Source of the DNA: a virus
Strand: one strand, 5' to 3'
IMG/VR virus record: IMGVR_UViG_3300031951_001321
Coordinates: 1-22,178 of that record
DNA: 22,178 nt
A program made the position numbers and the translations under genes. Positions 1,323 through 19,597 of this stretch are shown in pieces (the first letter of the stretch is position 1; each line of letters starts with the position of its first letter). Below the pieces are notes generated by a model. The model was not told where the DNA came from. It was given only the letters and a program-made list of their open reading frames with translations, and did not search any database.

Positions 1323-1512
1323 TTTCTAAAATTTTGAGTTCGATTTCTTCTACAGTTTCAGTCGAATAATATCCTACTACATCTTGTTTTCTTTGTACTG
1401 ATATTTCACTTTTGTTTTGTTGCCCATTATGAGGACAAACTGTAATTATATTTTTAACTCTAATTACGTGAAAACCGCCAATACATTTTACTTTGATAAA
1501 TTTACTTTTCAT
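1303..1512 (-). CDS. Small conserved phage protein, unknown function (FlbD-like beta fold possible)
   Basis: A 69-residue protein with alternating hydrophobic strands, then a segment ending in TVEEIELKI. The general pattern (a basic N-terminal strand, a segment VKNIITVCPH, then a C-terminal VEEIE helix) resembles small FlbD-like or phage proteins with a compact beta fold, but I cannot assign a family firmly. It contains two cysteines (residues 10 and 26) and His27, too few to claim a zinc site. It overlaps the RecT-like gene at its start (about 11 bases) and the nuclease gene at its end (20 bases), so it belongs to the recombination operon and is probably translationally coupled to both. That it is a real gene is supported by this packing. 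Confidence 0.6.
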   Translation of the reverse strand: MKSKFIKVKCIGGFHVIRVKNIITVCPHNGQQNKSEISVQRKQDVVGYYSTETVEEIELKILENEQQSK

Positions 1513-2233
1513 TTTTCAATTTATTAAGTTGATAAATAACTTTGTCATATTCTGCTACAACTTTGTTTTGGATAACGTTTTCAATGTGGTTTAAATCCCC
1601 AACACCTAATAACTCTTTTTTGAGTTCGAATAGTTCCTTTACTTTTTCAAGTTTTGTTACATCTTCAAAGTCGGTATCAATAGTTCCCATAACATCTTTA
1701 ACTTCTTCTACTGATTGCATTCCGTTTAGAATATCTGGAGCGTACAATCTACCGAAAAAAGATGCTGCACGATATTGGAACATTAATTCCGGCATTGTTT
1801 TCCACTTTGAACCCGTTTTACTTAACCAACCCTCTGACTTTACCATTAACCAAGTTACTAATGGACCAGTAATTCTATTTCCGTCGAAATCTTCTGTGTA
1901 GGCTCTACAACCATATTCATCTGACTTTACATCATTACCAACAAACTCAAATTTTAATGGTTTAAAACGTCCGCATGAGTTTAATGCAGCAATAATAAAC
2001 GAACTTCTCCAACTTGGTTTGCCTTGGATAATATCGAGGTTTTGCATTACCATAAAAGGACTAACTCCGATACGTGTTGCCATTTCCAAAGCAATCATAG
2101 TATTTGGAATATTGTTTTTGTACGCTTGTGGAACTAAATCCGAACTACAAAGCCCTTTTGCAATTCTTTGACCATCTTCGAATGATGCTATTGTACTAAA
2201 TATTGAAGCATCTGTTTTAGCTAAATTTGACAT
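1502..2233 (-). CDS. RecT-like single-strand annealing protein (probable)
   Basis: A 243-residue protein. The core segment from LVPQAYKN (33-40), through NTMIALEMATRIGVSPFMVMQ (44-64) and KPSWRSSFIIAALNSCGRF (72-90), to GSKWKTMPELMFQYRAASFF (141-160) matches what I recall of phage proteins annotated as RecT-family recombinases. Conserved-looking features are the SPFMVMQNL helix, the GCRAY strand near residue 108, and the Trp-Lys-Thr-Met-Pro-Glu-Leu-Met block. Such proteins bind single-stranded DNA and anneal complementary strands. The neighbourhood supports the call: a DUF1351-like protein directly upstream (3 bases from its stop) and a YqaJ-like nuclease and helicase downstream. The C-terminal 50 residues are charged and probably helical. 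The family call rests on motif memory and context, so a more distant annealing family is possible. Confidence 0.65.
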   Translation of the reverse strand: MSNLAKTDASIFSTIASFEDGQRIAKGLCSSDLVPQAYKNNIPNTMIALEMATRIGVSPFMVMQNLDIIQGKPSWRSSFIIAALNSCGRFKPLKFEFVGNDVKSDEYGCRAYTEDFDGNRITGPLVTWLMVKSEGWLSKTGSKWKTMPELMFQYRAASFFGRLYAPDILNGMQSVEEVKDVMGTIDTDFEDVTKLEKVKELFELKKELLGVGDLNHIENVIQNKVVAEYDKVIYQLNKLKNEK

Positions 2234-2235
2234 AA

Positions 2236-3516
2236 TTACAACTCTTTTAATTCGGTTAATAATTCTGATTTTACCATAGCGATTTTAAAATTGGCTCTTT
2301 CGATAAAATCTTTTATTTCTTTGTTTTCGGTTTCTAAATGCAAATCAGCAAAATAAACTTCAAAGCTTTCTGAAATTATTTTTTTGTCATTTGCCAAACG
2401 TTTAATTCTCGCTTTGTTTTCTGCTTCGGCTTTCTTTTGTTCAGCAGCAGCTCTTTTTTCAGCTTCTTGTTGTGCTTTTTCGTTGGCTTCTTTTTGCGCC
2501 TTTGCATCAGCAATAGACTTTTTAGTATCAGATAAAATTTGCTCAAATTCTGTTATTGAAGCGTTGTAAACTGTTTCGGTGTTTATAAAAATATCGACAA
2601 AATCATTATGGTTCATTCCTACGTTTTCGCCAAAAACAAAACCAATTTCTGCAAGTCGATTTTTTCTAACCTCAAACTGTTCATCTTTTTGCCTTTTGAT
2701 TTCAGCATTACGTTTGGTTTGTTCTTGTTCTTCTTTTGATTTTTTAATATCAGAAAGAACTTCTTCAAATTCTAAAGAACTTGCATTTTCAATAAATGAT
2801 TTTTGATAAAATGTAACTCTTTCTTTTGCCATAAAGCTATCATTATGCAAATCAAATCCAACTTCTTTCAATCGATTAACACGAACCTGAAACAATTCCT
2901 TTTTCAAATCTTCACGCTCTTTGCGTTCTTTTTCTCTTTGAGTTAAATCATTGGTTTTGTTCATCAAATCGTTTGAAACTCGAGATTTCATTTGCTCAAA
3001 CATAACGTCGTACTCCTCAAAGTCAAAATCAGTTTCAAGCAAGTTTGCAACTTCTTGAGTAGTTCCTAAAATCGTATCAAAAGTAATTTTTTGAATTACA
3101 GAATAACATTGCGTTTCGATTTCGTTAATCTTAGATTTAATTCCGTCGATACGCTCTTGCTCTAAGCGTTCTTTTTCGGCTTTTTCAGCTTCTTTAATGT
3201 TTTCCCAACGCTTCACTTCACTTTGTTGTTTTTCTTCAAACGGTAGCGTTATTTCGATTAATTTTTTGGTTTTTTCACCTACTGACTTCCTAAAGTTTGA
3301 AAGTTTTGAAGCAATTAGCTTTTCTTGGTTTTCTAATGCAGTACGTCCTTTGACTAATGCCGTACGATGCGCCTTTGCTTGTTCATAGGTTTTATTGTCG
3401 ATAATCTCAACAAATGGATTTGATTTTACTAACTCTTTTTGAGTAGTTTCAAACGTTGCTAATTCTGGTAATTGGTTAACGTTTAATTCATCTAAATTTA
3501 ATACTTCTTTGCTCAT
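2236..3516 (-). CDS. DUF1351-like coiled-coil phage recombination accessory protein with internal repeat
   Basis: A 426-residue, highly charged Lys/Glu/Gln-rich protein, mostly helical with long coiled-coil stretches (about residues 95-130, 190-210, 255-285 and 330-375). The N-terminal part (residues 33-105, with NPFVEIIDNKTYEQAKAHR followed by a long Lys/Arg helix) resembles phage DUF1351-type proteins, which commonly sit next to RecT. The C-terminal half holds two similar blocks of about 60 residues. Block one (209-268) starts VRVNRLKEVGFDL and ends EEVLSDIKKS; block two (281-340) starts VRKNRLAEIGFVF and ends EQILSDTKKS. An earlier region near 128-187 may be a third, decayed copy. The gene ends 2 bases before the RecT-like start. 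Biochemical role is unknown; a scaffold or loader for the annealing protein is an inference from position only. Confidence 0.6.
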   Translation of the reverse strand: MSKEVLNLDELNVNQLPELATFETTQKELVKSNPFVEIIDNKTYEQAKAHRTALVKGRTALENQEKLIASKLSNFRKSVGEKTKKLIEITLPFEEKQQSEVKRWENIKEAEKAEKERLEQERIDGIKSKINEIETQCYSVIQKITFDTILGTTQEVANLLETDFDFEEYDVMFEQMKSRVSNDLMNKTNDLTQREKERKEREDLKKELFQVRVNRLKEVGFDLHNDSFMAKERVTFYQKSFIENASSLEFEEVLSDIKKSKEEQEQTKRNAEIKRQKDEQFEVRKNRLAEIGFVFGENVGMNHNDFVDIFINTETVYNASITEFEQILSDTKKSIADAKAQKEANEKAQQEAEKRAAAEQKKAEAENKARIKRLANDKKIISESFEVYFADLHLETENKEIKDFIERANFKIAMVKSELLTELKEL

Positions 3517-3528
3517 TGTTTTGGGTTT

Positions 3529-3684
3529 TTATAAAGGTTTAACACTTTGAATTTTTCTAAATACTGTGCGACTATTTACGAAATCAATTAACGCTTGTAG
3601 TTCGTTTTCGGCTTCAACTACTTTCTCTACATCAGTTGAAACGTCGTTGCGTTCCGTCCAAAAAGTGATAACATACTTATTCAT
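3529..3684 (-). CDS. 51-residue phage protein, unknown function
   Basis: A short frame starting at the ATG at 3684-3682 and ending with TAA at 3529-3531. It encodes 51 residues beginning MNKYVITFWTERNDV and ending VKPL. The pattern (an N-terminal strand YVITFW, then an acidic helix VEKVVEAENELQALIDFV) is typical of small soluble phage proteins, but I recognise no family. The start overlaps the end of the HTH gene by 8 bases in another frame, and the stop lies 12 bases before the next ORF (ATG at 3516), so it fills an otherwise empty gap in a compact operon. That packing is the main support for its being a gene. Confidence 0.55.
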   Translation of the reverse strand: MNKYVITFWTERNDVSTDVEKVVEAENELQALIDFVNSRTVFRKIQSVKPL

Positions 3685-3991
3685 TGCTTTCAATTTCTTT
3701 TACAATATCCATAAACTTACAATCGTAATCTTTCATAAATTCACGGATAAACACTAATACTGCTGGTGGCTTTTGCCATTCACATAACGCCTTAAATACG
3801 TCCGTTTCTGGATTTTCTTTTACAATGTAAAACAAAACAGAAACTACATCGGGAGCTACTTTTTCCCAATTCACAAACGTTTGTTTCGATAATCCAAATT
3901 CATCCGCTACGGTGGAAATCCTAACCGTTTCTTTTGTGCGCTTGGAATGTTCTAATAAAAATGACTTCACGTCAATAACTACTTTTTTCAT
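3677..3991 (-). CDS. HTH-domain DNA-binding protein (small phage regulator, probable)
   Basis: A 104-residue protein with a predicted helix-turn-helix at about residues 24-45: RISTVADEFGLSKQTFVNWE has the A-x-x-F-G-L-S-x-x-T spacing of a Cro/MerR-like HTH followed by a Trp-Glu. The remainder (46-104) is helical and contains PDVVSVLFYIVKEN and a Cys/Trp pair near residues 70-72. There is no catalytic motif. It lies third in the early operon, downstream of a promoter that carries a perfect palindrome at 4470-4490, so it could be an autoregulator of that operon, but nothing in the sequence proves that it binds there. A replication initiator or a nucleoid-type protein are alternatives. Confidence 0.55.
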   Translation of the reverse strand: MKKVVIDVKSFLLEHSKRTKETVRISTVADEFGLSKQTFVNWEKVAPDVVSVLFYIVKENPETDVFKALCEWQKPPAVLVFIREFMKDYDCKFMDIVKEIESNE

Positions 3992-4000
3992 ATAATGGTT

Positions 4001-4234
4001 TTAAATGTTATACTCTTTTTCTACTTCCGATAATGGCAAATCAAACAAAGGATTTTTCACATCAATATTTTTAGGAATTTCGCCTTTTATTTCTATAACT
4101 TTTGGATACAAATCGCATCTTTTAAGTTCGTTTGGGTTTTGGTTTTTAGTTTCTAAAATAGACTTTAATCTTTTAAAATCATTTCTAAAAACTAACTCTT
4201 GTATGGTTGCTGATTTTAATTGTACTACTCGCAT
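4001..4234 (-). CDS. 77-residue early-operon protein, unknown function
   Basis: A small protein with a basic N-terminal half (a helix-rich stretch to about residue 30, with NDFKRLKSILE) and a C-terminal part containing LYPKVIEIKGEIPK and ending in an acidic tail EVEKEYNI. I do not recognise it. The ATG lies 2 bases after the stop of the first gene of the operon, and its stop is 9 bases from the HTH gene. There is no signal peptide and no membrane segment. Likely a host-takeover or accessory protein of the kind phages carry at the head of early operons, but that is guesswork from position. Confidence 0.5.
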   Translation of the reverse strand: MRVVQLKSATIQELVFRNDFKRLKSILETKNQNPNELKRCDLYPKVIEIKGEIPKNIDVKNPLFDLPLSEVEKEYNI

Positions 4235-4236
4235 AA

Positions 4237-4443
4237 TTATTGATTTTCTTTTTCGTAGAAGTATTGGTCATCATAAGTAGCAAAAACTACTTTGTCCTTA
4301 AAAAGCCAATACCTAGTAGTATTTGAATTATTAAAAGAAACACTTTTTGTTCCTTTTTTTACGAATGTTCCGAAATCTTTAAAATCGGTATCGAAGTAAT
4401 AAACTTTGCCTATTACTAAATCTTTGTAGTGTACTTTTTTCAT
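4237..4443 (-). CDS. First gene of the early operon: 68-residue protein, unknown function
   Basis: I choose the ATG at 4443-4441, giving 68 residues starting MKKVHYKDLVIGKVYYFD. An upstream in-frame GTG at 4467-4465 would add 8 residues, but it overlaps the TAnnTTTG promoter box (4467-4474) and would lie at or before the expected transcription start, so I reject it. The protein is rich in Tyr, Phe, Lys and Asp with alternating hydrophobic residues (KVYYFD, SVSFNN, RYWLFK, KVVFATYDD), suggesting a small beta-barrel such as an SH3-like fold. No known family is recognised. It is the first product expected from the 4467-4497 promoter, with a leader of only about 15-20 bases. Confidence 0.55.
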   Translation of the reverse strand: MKKVHYKDLVIGKVYYFDTDFKDFGTFVKKGTKSVSFNNSNTTRYWLFKDKVVFATYDDQYFYEKENQ

Positions 4444-4466
4444 TTTGTTAATTGTTTTAGACTTCA

Positions 4467-4497
4467 CAAAAGTAAAAATAATTTTTACTTATGCAAA
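4467..4497 (-). promoter_or_regulatory. Bacteroidota-type promoter of the early operon
   Basis: On the minus strand, TTTG (4497-4494) is followed after exactly 19 bases by TACTTTTG (4474-4467), an exact match to the Bacteroidota/Flavobacterium consensus TTTG-N19-TAnnTTTG. Transcription would begin around 4460 and the first ATG is at 4443. It lies immediately downstream of the virion-operon terminator, so it begins an independent transcription unit. Confidence 0.75.
4470..4490. promoter_or_regulatory. Perfect palindrome within the promoter, probable operator
   Basis: A 21-base perfect inverted repeat: arms AAGTAAAAAT and ATTTTTACTT (10 bases each) around one central A. It covers the 3' part of the promoter spacer and five bases of the -7 box, an ideal place for a repressor to block polymerase. 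A further copy of the half-site AGTAAAA lies upstream of the -33 element at about 4504-4510. Which protein binds is unknown; the HTH protein of the same operon is one candidate. Confidence 0.55.
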
Positions 4498-4514
4498 CAT
4501 TTTTTTTACTTTTT

Positions 4515-4553
4515 TTTATAAAAACAAAAAACCCCGAAATAATTCGAGGTTTT
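4515..4553 (-). terminator. Intrinsic terminator of the virion operon
   Basis: Arms 4528-4538 and 4543-4553 with a 4-base loop. Read on the minus strand the stem is 11 pairs, including one G-U wobble that would be a mismatch in plus-strand RNA, and it is followed by a T-rich tract (GGTTTTTTGTTTTTATA). The wobble and the T tract both point to use by leftward transcripts. It lies 28 bases beyond the stop of the spike gene. Confidence 0.82.
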
Positions 4554-4580
4554 AAGTGTCGTCTAAAACAATGAAAAAAA

Positions 4581-5075
4581 TTACTTCAACTTTACAGTTT
4601 CACTCTTTGCGTTATCGATGTTTATGGCTACATCCGCTCTAGGATAAGCACCTCCAAGTGTTTGTATTGCAGTCTGTATTTTTGTGAGTTCAATATTAAG
4701 CAAATTAACCGAATTATCCAAACCCGTTTTTAATGGCTCAAATCGTACCGTTGTATATTGGTTGCCGTTCATTTCTAAAGTACCGTTATTCTTTAACCAA
4801 AGGAATGTTTTTTCAACACCTTGCGCATCCTTTGAATAAAGTCTTATTTCGCCACTTTGCGCTAATTTATTGTTATCGATGTAACCAATAACAACACTTT
4901 CACTATCATTTGAAGTCGTAGCGTGTATAGCTGTCATTCCTTTTATTGGATTTGTATCAATACCAAAAGGCACACAATCCGAAGCTGTTTTGGCTCCAGA
5001 AATAGAAAATATTTTTATAATTCGTTTACCAAGTGCATTAATCGTAGCACTATCAAATTTGCTAAATGTTATCAT
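4581..5075 (-). CDS. Baseplate spike/puncturing protein, Mu gp45-like
   Basis: A 164-residue protein matching the Mu gp45 type of short membrane-piercing spike. The OB-fold-like part is at about 30-80, with ASDCVPFGIDTNPIKGM, VVIGYIDNNK and SGEIRLYS, the last corresponding to the PGE-x-x-x-YS strand of this family. It is followed by a beta strand region FLWLKNNGTLEMNG (91-104). The remaining 60 residues look like a short helix plus beta tip, ending in Lys. I do not see the HxH iron-binding apex known from P2 gpV-type spikes; His51 is the only histidine. It follows the hub gene by 2 bases and is the last gene before the operon terminator. It forms the trimeric needle at the centre of the baseplate and interacts with the gpP-like hub. 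Confidence 0.72.
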   Translation of the reverse strand: MITFSKFDSATINALGKRIIKIFSISGAKTASDCVPFGIDTNPIKGMTAIHATTSNDSESVVIGYIDNNKLAQSGEIRLYSKDAQGVEKTFLWLKNNGTLEMNGNQYTTVRFEPLKTGLDNSVNLLNIELTKIQTAIQTLGGAYPRADVAINIDNAKSETVKLK

Positions 5076-6194: not shown

Positions 6195-6225
6195 AATAAA
6201 AAAAGCACTCGATAAGGAGTGCTTT
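6195..6225 (-). terminator. Intrinsic terminator inside the tail operon, between gpN and gpP
   Basis: A perfect 9-pair stem: arms 6202-6210 and 6217-6225 (AAAGCACTC / GAGTGCTTT) with loop GATAAG. On the minus strand it is followed by TTTTTTTATTT. It starts within 5 bases of the gpN stop. It looks like a full rho-independent terminator, though it lies in the middle of a set of genes that are all needed for one baseplate. Confidence 0.78.
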
Positions 6226-18524: not shown

Positions 18525-19597
18525 TACGATGCTGACGTTGTCGTTAATGTATAAATTCTGTCAACTGATAACGGAACCGCTAATGGAGCTGAATTTAGAA
18601 TGTATTCCCAACTCATTTTTTTAGGGTCGATAACGTCGTGAACTTCATAAGTAGCTTCAACATTTCCAACATATTGACCATCGTGAACGTTACCTAAAAC
18701 AGCAGGTAATGCACCATGACCAGTGAACCCTTGGAAATCTGACGGCAACAAAATTACTTTGTTTGCATCTAAATAACGTACTTCGTTACCTTCCGCATCT
18801 TCGTAAGTTTCGTTATAAGTCCAAAGATTTACGATAAAATCCCCAGCTCCAACTTGACCTTGGAAAACTAAACCAGAAACATTATCCATTTGTGGCATTT
18901 GGATGTCAGTACGATTAATATTTCTGATGTCCGCTTCGGCTTTAACTTTTGCAGATAATTTGAAATTATTAAACGCAGTTGAACCCATAATAGCATTAAC
19001 AGTTGATGCTCCAGAACGTCCAGTATTTCTCAAAAATTCGCAACCGTCTTGTAAATCTTTTACAGGGTCGCAATCAGCAGAAACCGTCCATCTTGCAGCA
19101 CCAGTTAAAGTTTCAAAACTTTCGGCTTTACGTTTGAAATCGATGTTATCTCCATTTTTCAAAACAACAATTCCAGTTTGTAGAATTTGCGCTCTTTGAA
19201 GCTCTTTCGCTCTTTCGATTTGGTCTTTCAAATGAGTTAATTTCGCATCAGCAGACTGCAATAATGACGTTCCTGTAATTTCGTTTGGAACTGTTCCCAT
19301 TCCAAAAGTAACATCATAGCTTTCGCACGACGTAAAATCGAAACTTAACGAATACATTGGCGGAATGAAAATCTTTTCAGTTGATTTACTGAACTTATTT
19401 CTAATCGGATCGGTGCAACGTTGAACGTCAACAGCTACCTTTTTACCTAATCTTTCAACTTCAATTGAAAATCCTTTTGTTCTTGTCGTTTTATCTGGGA
19501 AAAACGCACCAAAACCCGATTTTACACCTACTCTGTCTGAAAAAGTAGCAACTAATTGTTGTGTAAATCCTTTACGATGTTGATTTAATCCTATCAT
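18524..19597 (-). CDS. Major capsid protein, lambda gpE-like
   Basis: A 357-residue protein, close to lambda gpE (341). Motifs of the major capsid protein E family are visible: IFIPPMYSLSFDFTS (85-100, the PP-x-Y strand), LQRAQILQTGIVVLKNGD-type helix and strand (131-148, the ALQTGK-like signature), TVSADCDPVKDLQDGCEFLRNTG, INAIMGSTAF-like, and a C-terminal pair LPAVLGNVHDGQYVG and SAPLAVPLSVDRIYTL. The fold is HK97-like but of the gpE branch, normally stabilised by a decoration protein; that gene lies 6 bases upstream. It assembles the icosahedral head and is processed or scaffolded by the S49 protease protein encoded further upstream. Confidence 0.85.
   Translation of the reverse strand: MIGLNQHRKGFTQQLVATFSDRVGVKSGFGAFFPDKTTRTKGFSIEVERLGKKVAVDVQRCTDPIRNKFSKSTEKIFIPPMYSLSFDFTSCESYDVTFGMGTVPNEITGTSLLQSADAKLTHLKDQIERAKELQRAQILQTGIVVLKNGDNIDFKRKAESFETLTGAARWTVSADCDPVKDLQDGCEFLRNTGRSGASTVNAIMGSTAFNNFKLSAKVKAEADIRNINRTDIQMPQMDNVSGLVFQGQVGAGDFIVNLWTYNETYEDAEGNEVRYLDANKVILLPSDFQGFTGHGALPAVLGNVHDGQYVGNVEATYEVHDVIDPKKMSWEYILNSAPLAVPLSVDRIYTLTTTSAS

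Follow-up and report, generated by a model that had tools for sequence, protein, structure and literature searches.

Promoters of the Flavobacterium/Bacteroidetes sigma-A type consist of a TTTG box and a TAnnTTTG box separated by 19 nt, and the transcriptome study of F. psychrophilum places TAnnTTTG at positions -12 to -5 (PMC9723704). Among phages of this host group, the announcement of phage FL-1 describes neither a regulator nor a promoter (PMC5465603), while the FCL-2 paper reports that integrases and repressors are absent and that lysogeny was not detected (PMC4541368). A term search of a further article gave nothing relevant (PMC5524643), and the listings of a literature search, with subscription journals mostly outside its reach, contained no mapped promoter regulation for freshwater Flavobacterium phages.

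Here, we analyzed a stretch of viral DNA of 22,178 nt, which we refer to as the window (IMG/VR record IMGVR_UViG_3300031951_001321), in which an initial annotation had proposed an exact consensus promoter covered by a palindromic operator at the head of an early operon. Direct reading confirmed the promoter, TTTG-N19-TACTTTTG at 4497-4467 on the minus strand, as well as all of the coordinates that had been assigned to the locus (Table 1). Its 2 boxes are located about 19 nt apart in an intergenic region, ahead of a gene and behind a terminator, as is the case for Bacteroidetes sigma-A promoters, and a sigma-70 scan gave no match on 4497-4467, which is the expected result for this phylum. The consensus TTTG-N19-TAnnTTTG occurred 3 times in the window (at 4497, 6857, and 3027, with 0.385 expected), and the occurrence at 4497 was the only intergenic one. 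If TAnnTTTG is located at -12 to -5 (PMC9723704), the early mRNA is predicted to start at about position 4462. The ATG codon of the first gene, at 4443, is located 23 nt downstream of the -7 box. An ORF of 76 aa with a GTG start (4237-4467) overlaps the promoter; this GTG is a poor choice of start codon, and the ATG at 4443 (68 aa) fits.

On the minus strand, the tail gene at 4581-5075 is followed by its 3' end, the terminator at 4553-4528, an A-tract, the TTTG box, the spacer, the -7 box, and the ATG at 4443. Since the terminator ends the tail operon just upstream, the promoter sits at an operon boundary, and its proposed position at the head of the recombination operon was upheld, with the recT operon behind it and the terminator of the tail operon ahead of it. 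It was also noted that a hairpin, AAAGCACTCGATAAGGAGTGCTTT, is present at 6202-6225 of the window, where 2 tail genes join. The operon downstream of the promoter contains, in order, 2 small genes, the HTH gene, another small gene, the phrog_6347 gene, the gene for the RecT-like protein, a small gene, and the phrog_4763 gene, whose product may be the nuclease partner of RecT. A second contig, L004, is identical to the left end of the window over 2294 bases and extends the operon with a helicase-methyltransferase fusion; the 2.9 kb that it adds contain no additional consensus promoter. Judging from its gene content and homologues, the operon is probably expressed early. An ATPase-like protein takes the place of RecT in L119 (4989-6050) and in FL-1 (L107 28802-29869), where it matches AAA_24 and phrog_1366, and the end of the L119 protein resembles that of the RecT-like protein in the window.

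Table 1. Coordinates of the promoter, the putative operators, the flanking repeats, and the neighboring genes in the window
Feature	Position	Strand	Basis
-33 element, TTTG	4494-4497	-	direct reading
-7 element, TACTTTTG (TAnnTTTG)	4467-4474	-	direct reading
Promoter spacer, 19 nt	4493-4475	-	direct reading
Intrinsic terminator at the end of the tail operon	4528-4553	-	terminator scan: 1 found, 0.1 expected
Palindrome without mismatches, with O1 core GTAAA-N7-TTTAC (4488-4472) reaching into the -7 box	4470-4490		direct reading
Second, imperfect site; core O2 = GTAAA-N7-TTTGC (4509-4493), overlaps the -33 element	4491-4511		shuffle test
Wide inverted repeat from the outer half-sites (perfect arms of 11 bp around a loop of 24)	4468-4513		sequence comparison
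Downstream arm of outer inverted repeat, corresponding to +1 to +12 of the early mRNA as predicted	4451-4462	-	repeat search
Upstream arm of outer inverted repeat, within the 3' UTR of the tail mRNA	4561-4572	-	repeat search
First operon gene, 68 aa, without assigned function	4237-4443	-	no database match
Second operon gene, 77 aa, without assigned function	4001-4234	-	weak matches only
Gene for the HTH protein of 104 aa (predicted Cro/CI-type fold), a candidate autorepressor	3677-3991	-	alignment, HMM, predicted structure
phrog_6347 gene, 426 aa	2236-3516	-	E 3.5e-99
RecT-like annealing protein	1502-2233	-	phrog_561, E 3.6e-73
phrog_4763 gene, 249 aa	573-1322	-	E 9e-87
Final tail-operon gene (phrog_5226), comparison anchor	4581-5075	-	PHROG match

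The perfect 10+1+10 palindrome noted over the spacer and most of the -7 box was also present as described, at 4490-4470. It reads AAGTAAAAAT-T-ATTTTTACTT (as a whole, AAGTAAAAATTATTTTTACTT), contains no mismatches, and covers 16 of the 19 spacer bases and 5 of the 8 bases of the -7 box. No other palindrome in the window had arms of at least 10 bases and a gap of 0 to 1, and 0.10 were expected per shuffled window (60 shuffles). When the 137-nt intergenic region itself was shuffled, such a palindrome was obtained in 68 of 5000 cases with a gap of 0 to 1 and in 242 of 5000 with a gap of 0 to 7. The palindrome is only modestly rare in such A+T-rich DNA, and is suggestive of regulation but alone no proof of it.

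The additional half-site AGTAAAA, found at 4510-4504 as had been noted, belongs to a second 17-bp site that adjoins O1. The O2 region (4511-4491, AAGTAAAAAAAATGTTTGCAT) is identical to the palindrome at 16 of 21 positions, abuts it with a 21-bp step, and includes the -33 box. The spacing within the 2 cores is the same, N7, with a single mismatch in O2 and none in O1. With O1 fixed and the upstream 90 nt shuffled, an abutting match of at least 16/21 was obtained in 5 of 5000 cases, and a match anywhere in these 90 nt in 138 of 5000. Under a stricter null model, in which both promoter boxes were kept and all registers were searched, the likeness between O1 and O2 yielded a p value of 0.27. Within the window alone, the resemblance of the 2 sites is weak under this null.

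In the shuffles, comparable dyads arose by chance at rates of about 0.01 to 0.05, as would be expected if this were an ordinary, unregulated promoter, with the palindrome and the A-tract half-site as by-products of A+T-rich promoter DNA, which has A-tracts upstream and TTT in the -7 box. The outer half-sites point partly in the same direction. Their arrangement as a wide inverted repeat is common to the window, L007, L105, and L104, but AAAAGTA tracts upstream of the -33 box were also identified in L089 and L097, both of which lack dyads, and the outer half-sites recur at the promoter of 1 bacterial gene (Draconibacterium, L113). Because such tracts occur in L089, L097, and L113, the upstream half-site may partly represent a promoter element of the A-tract type. 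A pattern search of bacterial genomes for the outer half-sites around TTTG gave 7 stretches. Three are from Bacteroidota: L111 and L113, which were non-coding by an ORF test, and L110, which was located within an ORF.

Loss of the palindrome in relatives that keep the promoter had been named in the initial annotation as grounds against a regulatory role, and this is partly what we observed. The exact palindrome (20 bases) was identified in IMG/VR only in L003, which represents the same phage (99.8% identity to the window over 8160 bases, with differences confined to 2881-3154). We inspected 15 tail-gene loci, excluding the partial L101 and the duplicates L088, L091, and L092. An exact TTTG-N19-TAnnTTTG promoter was located behind the tail gene in L090, L093, L095, L097, and FL-1, and an N21 variant in L096, while none was found by that pattern at the remaining inspected loci. 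Compact palindromes of at least 8 on the tail-adjacent promoter were present in only 2 of the 15, L093 and FL-1, each with a different sequence. None of 117 candidate stretches from a search of bacterial genomes with the tail-gene profile encoded a relative.

Among 18 promoters tested, all homologous or related, 4 had significant compact palindromes (p <0.05), including that of L011, which resembles a terminator stem, and 5 had significant wide inverted repeats; the row for L008 in this test corresponds to the wrong promoter. The promoters in L090, L095, and L097 were retained without a significant dyad, again as would be expected of unregulated promoters. From these comparisons, the position of the promoter is conserved in part and the sequence of the palindrome is not; the same picture would be expected of a regulator with changing specificity.

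The support for regulation comes from the wider arrangement, namely the two-site layouts in the window, L007, and L105, the operators in FL-1, and the recurring HTH family. The L007 promoter, which precedes an HTH-recT operon with the HTH gene in first position, carries the same 20-bp sequence inverted on its -33 and -7 boxes (17/20, p 0.002). The corresponding repeat was 17/20 in its near relative L105, in which the HTH gene also comes first in the recT operon (p 0.004), and 19/20 in L104 (0/1000). L007 came from a list of consensus promoters (26 distinct and non-coding, 97 sources) that had been made without selecting for dyads, whereas a pattern that includes the half-sites was used to find L104 and L105, which are therefore biased and count for less. 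Promoters overlapping ORFs, among them the FL-1 promoter at 49738, were omitted from this list, and the duplicates L001-L003, L087, L088, L091, and L092 were excluded. The spacing inside the site is N4 between GTAAAC and GTTT in L007 and L105, N7 in the window, and N8 in the phage of L104.

Several other repeated elements were seen at promoters in these genomes. Nearly identical promoters are located at 32891 and 41983 in G008 (the record of L095), the first of them following the tail gene, which points to a common control element with no obvious dyad. The promoters at G004 7518 and 34812 and at G013 4639 have N21 spacers and carry a GTTATAAATTTG / GTTATATATTTG-like motif that recurs on -33 and -7 at a 29-bp step. 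In L089 (5492-5647), 2 copies of the direct repeat TTTGTAATTCAAAA flank a weak promoter ahead of the homologous operon.

A repeated dyad was found in FL-1, where, with up to 3 mismatches allowed, TACGCAAA-N2-TTTGCGTA was present at 5 sites (0.28 expected; maximum of 2 in 100 shuffles). The motif had been defined on 2 of these sites, so that the other 3 served as a test. All 5 sites are located at consensus promoters, at 18897, 25832 (2 sites), 49738, and 52380, and 4 promoters carry an operator element centered on -33. The promoter at 25832 has 1 operator on -33 and 1 on -7, and is located 25 nt ahead of an HTH-family gene (product APZ82915.1), the first gene behind it, which was identified with a profile that did not include FL-1 (E 5.1e-17). 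This gene is followed by phrog_6347, by an AAA ATPase where the window has RecT, and by phrog_4763. The promoter list for the window and its relatives, from which ORF-overlapping promoters and those without an ORF start within 120 nt were omitted, hid the FL-1 promoters at 18897 and 3244; a separate listing, without these omissions, contained all of them.

In G001, the phage of L104, GTAAA-N8-TTTAC was identified at 5 places, 4 of which are at promoters, on either -33 or -7, and an additional site with 1 mismatch is present on another TACATTTG box. Three of the G001 sites are intergenic by the mask used, with 0.06 expected, and a count of 3 was not attained in any of 500 shuffles, whichever spacing from 0 to 15 was used. 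While the window, as a 22-kb fragment, has a single intergenic consensus promoter, operators are repeated at further promoters in FL-1 and G001, and such dyads can therefore be regulon-like operators in this phage group. Private operators repeated far above chance in these 2 phages, together with the duplicated site in L007 and L105, weigh against an unregulated promoter, which we consider a rather unlikely explanation.

The HTH gene reported in the operon was retained in our analysis, and its product belongs to a syntenic family with a predicted Cro/CI fold. An HMM built from the window HTH protein and its syntenic relatives matched proteins in L006, L007, L008, L009, L105, L089, L090, L095, FCL-2, and FCV-1. 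Later iterations of this HMM, which gave 41 matches in total, strayed into HTH proteins from other phages, and only the recT-operon set was counted. Members were present in 10 of the 14 records searched and absent from those of L104, L093, L096, and L097, which may reflect incomplete contigs. As a single query, the window protein retrieved only the contig of its own phage among viral contigs, and nothing in the phage collection or among PDB sequences.

An AlphaFold2 model based on the alignment had a mean pLDDT of 90.7 and was used in place of a single-sequence model, which was discarded (pLDDT 47.7). It predicts helices at residues 8-19, 25-31, 36-44, and 48-59, among others, as well as short strands at the two termini, and thereby the helix-turn-helix fold of the XRE (Cro/CI) family. 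The top VIA-align rows were mostly small HTH regulators, with CylR2 first (Z 5.5, 65 residues, 3.3 A), and included 9k3w, SaPI2 Stl, and VanUg, with P22 c2 lower down (Z 4.1); Z values of 4 to 5.5 are modest. Foldseek gave no match at E <=0.001, and HTH proteins were among its best rows. The window protein reaches no Pfam HTH cut-off and has weak PHROG matches only, and its aligned relative L010 exceeds the HTH_26 cut-off (25.3 vs 22 bits). A search of 18 records with PF01381 matched the second HTH gene of FL-1 and 2 members of the HTH family. Compared to its relatives, the window protein has about 30 extra residues between an 'AP' motif and the C-terminal 'F-D-VKE' motif, which look like a partial internal duplication.

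We suggest that the early promoter is shut off by the Cro-like product of the third gene in its own operon, and put the chances of this at about even. Early in infection, the bare promoter, which is of the host sigma-A type, would be read by the host polymerase. As the HTH protein accumulates, its dimers would bind, perhaps cooperatively, to 2 abutting 17-bp sites with centers 21 bp, or 2 helical turns, apart. Occupation of O1 on the -7 box and of O2 on the -33 box would exclude polymerase, and the recombination operon would be expressed as a limited early pulse. As for the phage-encoded switch originally proposed, the operator-like dyads over both promoter elements, the HTH gene in the operon, and the parallel in FL-1 speak for it, whereas the perfect palindrome was not found to be a conserved element. 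A switch between lysis and lysogeny finds no support, given what the FCL-2 paper reports (PMC4541368).

The sequences of the HTH proteins and of the operators do not co-vary cleanly. The window and L007 share half-sites though their HTH proteins are only about 26% identical, and L007 and L105 share the operator, yet their presumed recognition helices differ in residues. The HTH proteins of L008 and L119 are 53% to 54% identical to that of L007, and no GTAAAC site is present on their -7 boxes. The HTH-family gene is present in FCL-2, FCV-1, L006, and L009, in which no clear operator was seen. For lack of such co-variation, the protein encoded at 3677-3991 is a candidate reader of O1 and O2 only.

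The sites could instead be read by a regulator encoded outside the 22-kb fragment, by a host factor, or by an activator that replaces recognition of the -33 box, as MotA does at T4 middle promoters. The absence of co-variation would agree with another reader, as would the presence of this type of site in G001, where no match to the HTH family was found. Furthermore, the element centered on -33 at 4 FL-1 promoters suits activation as well as repression, and a second HTH_3 gene of the Cro/CI type in FL-1 could encode the reader there. This gene (L107 16606-16860), above the Pfam cut-off and recorded as a 'hypothetical protein', adjoins the only 2 leftward genes of the phage, and no operator copy was found at its own promoter. 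Activation is disfavored by the position of O1 over the -7 box, and 2 of the 5 FL-1 sites are located at the promoter of the HTH-family gene itself; we regard another reader as unlikely.

A perfect 12-bp inverted repeat brackets the terminator and the promoter (Table 1), and a read-through transcript of the whole region folds at a z of about -7. That the intergenic region acts as a nucleic-acid structure, in which this repeat pairs the 3' end of the tail mRNA with the early mRNA (late-to-early antisense) or bounds an invertible promoter, is highly improbable. In its favor, the arms match exactly from the predicted +1, a 12-bp repeat with at least 3 G/C arose in only 7 of 5000 shuffles, and the duplex energy of -14.7 kcal/mol was reached by 0 of 2000 shuffled sequences. 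Against it, pairing that is striking in the window was unspecific in relatives, where cognate pairs were no better than non-cognate ones (1 non-cognate pair reached -16.4). The flipped junction had 0 matches in viral contigs, and the region is oriented alike in the window and in L003, its only other copy.

The small unannotated family of the HTH protein (phrog_6759-like, 'unknown function') emerges from the comparison as a likely early-gene regulator. A broader proposal, which we offer tentatively and consider doubtful, is that apparently lytic Flavobacterium phages share a fixed layout, with an operator on -33, another on -7, and a tiny Cro-like protein encoded in the operon, while the operators are private to each lineage and their specificity turns over fast. 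The operator types by lineage are TACGCAAA-N2, GTAAAC-N4, and GTAAA-N7. Repressor specificity would then turn over as it does in the immunity repressors of temperate phages, though there is no known lysogeny to protect, and the regulator might also act on a closely related superinfecting phage by silencing its early genes.

Compared to known systems, the window promoter matches both boxes of the Flavobacterium/Bacteroidetes sigma-A promoter exactly, with the 19-nt spacer and a short A-rich leader, and differs by the addition of operator-like dyads across both boxes. The dyad at a recombination operon is also reminiscent of the SOS (LexA-like) regulons of Bacteroidetes. Such control was rejected as far as it would act through the 3 boxes named in the available text of the LexA paper (PMC8565304), CTAA-N5-TTAG, GGA-N5-TCC, and TTAC-N5-GTAA, which are all absent from the intergenic region. 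With the autorepressors of the Cro, P22 c2, and CylR2 type (XRE), the window shares the predicted fold, a gene located within the operon that would be controlled, and palindromes over the promoter, although its protein is too distant for the Pfam cut-off, its DNA binding is a prediction, and a lysogeny module was not seen. There is also a likeness to the Ficleduovirus phages FL-1, FCL-2, and FCV-1, which contain the tail operon and an operon with an HTH-family gene (gp42 of FCL-2 is phrog_6759). FCL-2 and FCV-1 encode a RecT-like protein in the HTH operon, as in the window, but carry no recognizable operator. In FL-1, by contrast, the HTH operon, with its ATPase, is located apart from the tail operon and another operator is found at 4 promoters. 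The comparison gives exact sites in a cultured phage where early-gene regulation is testable.
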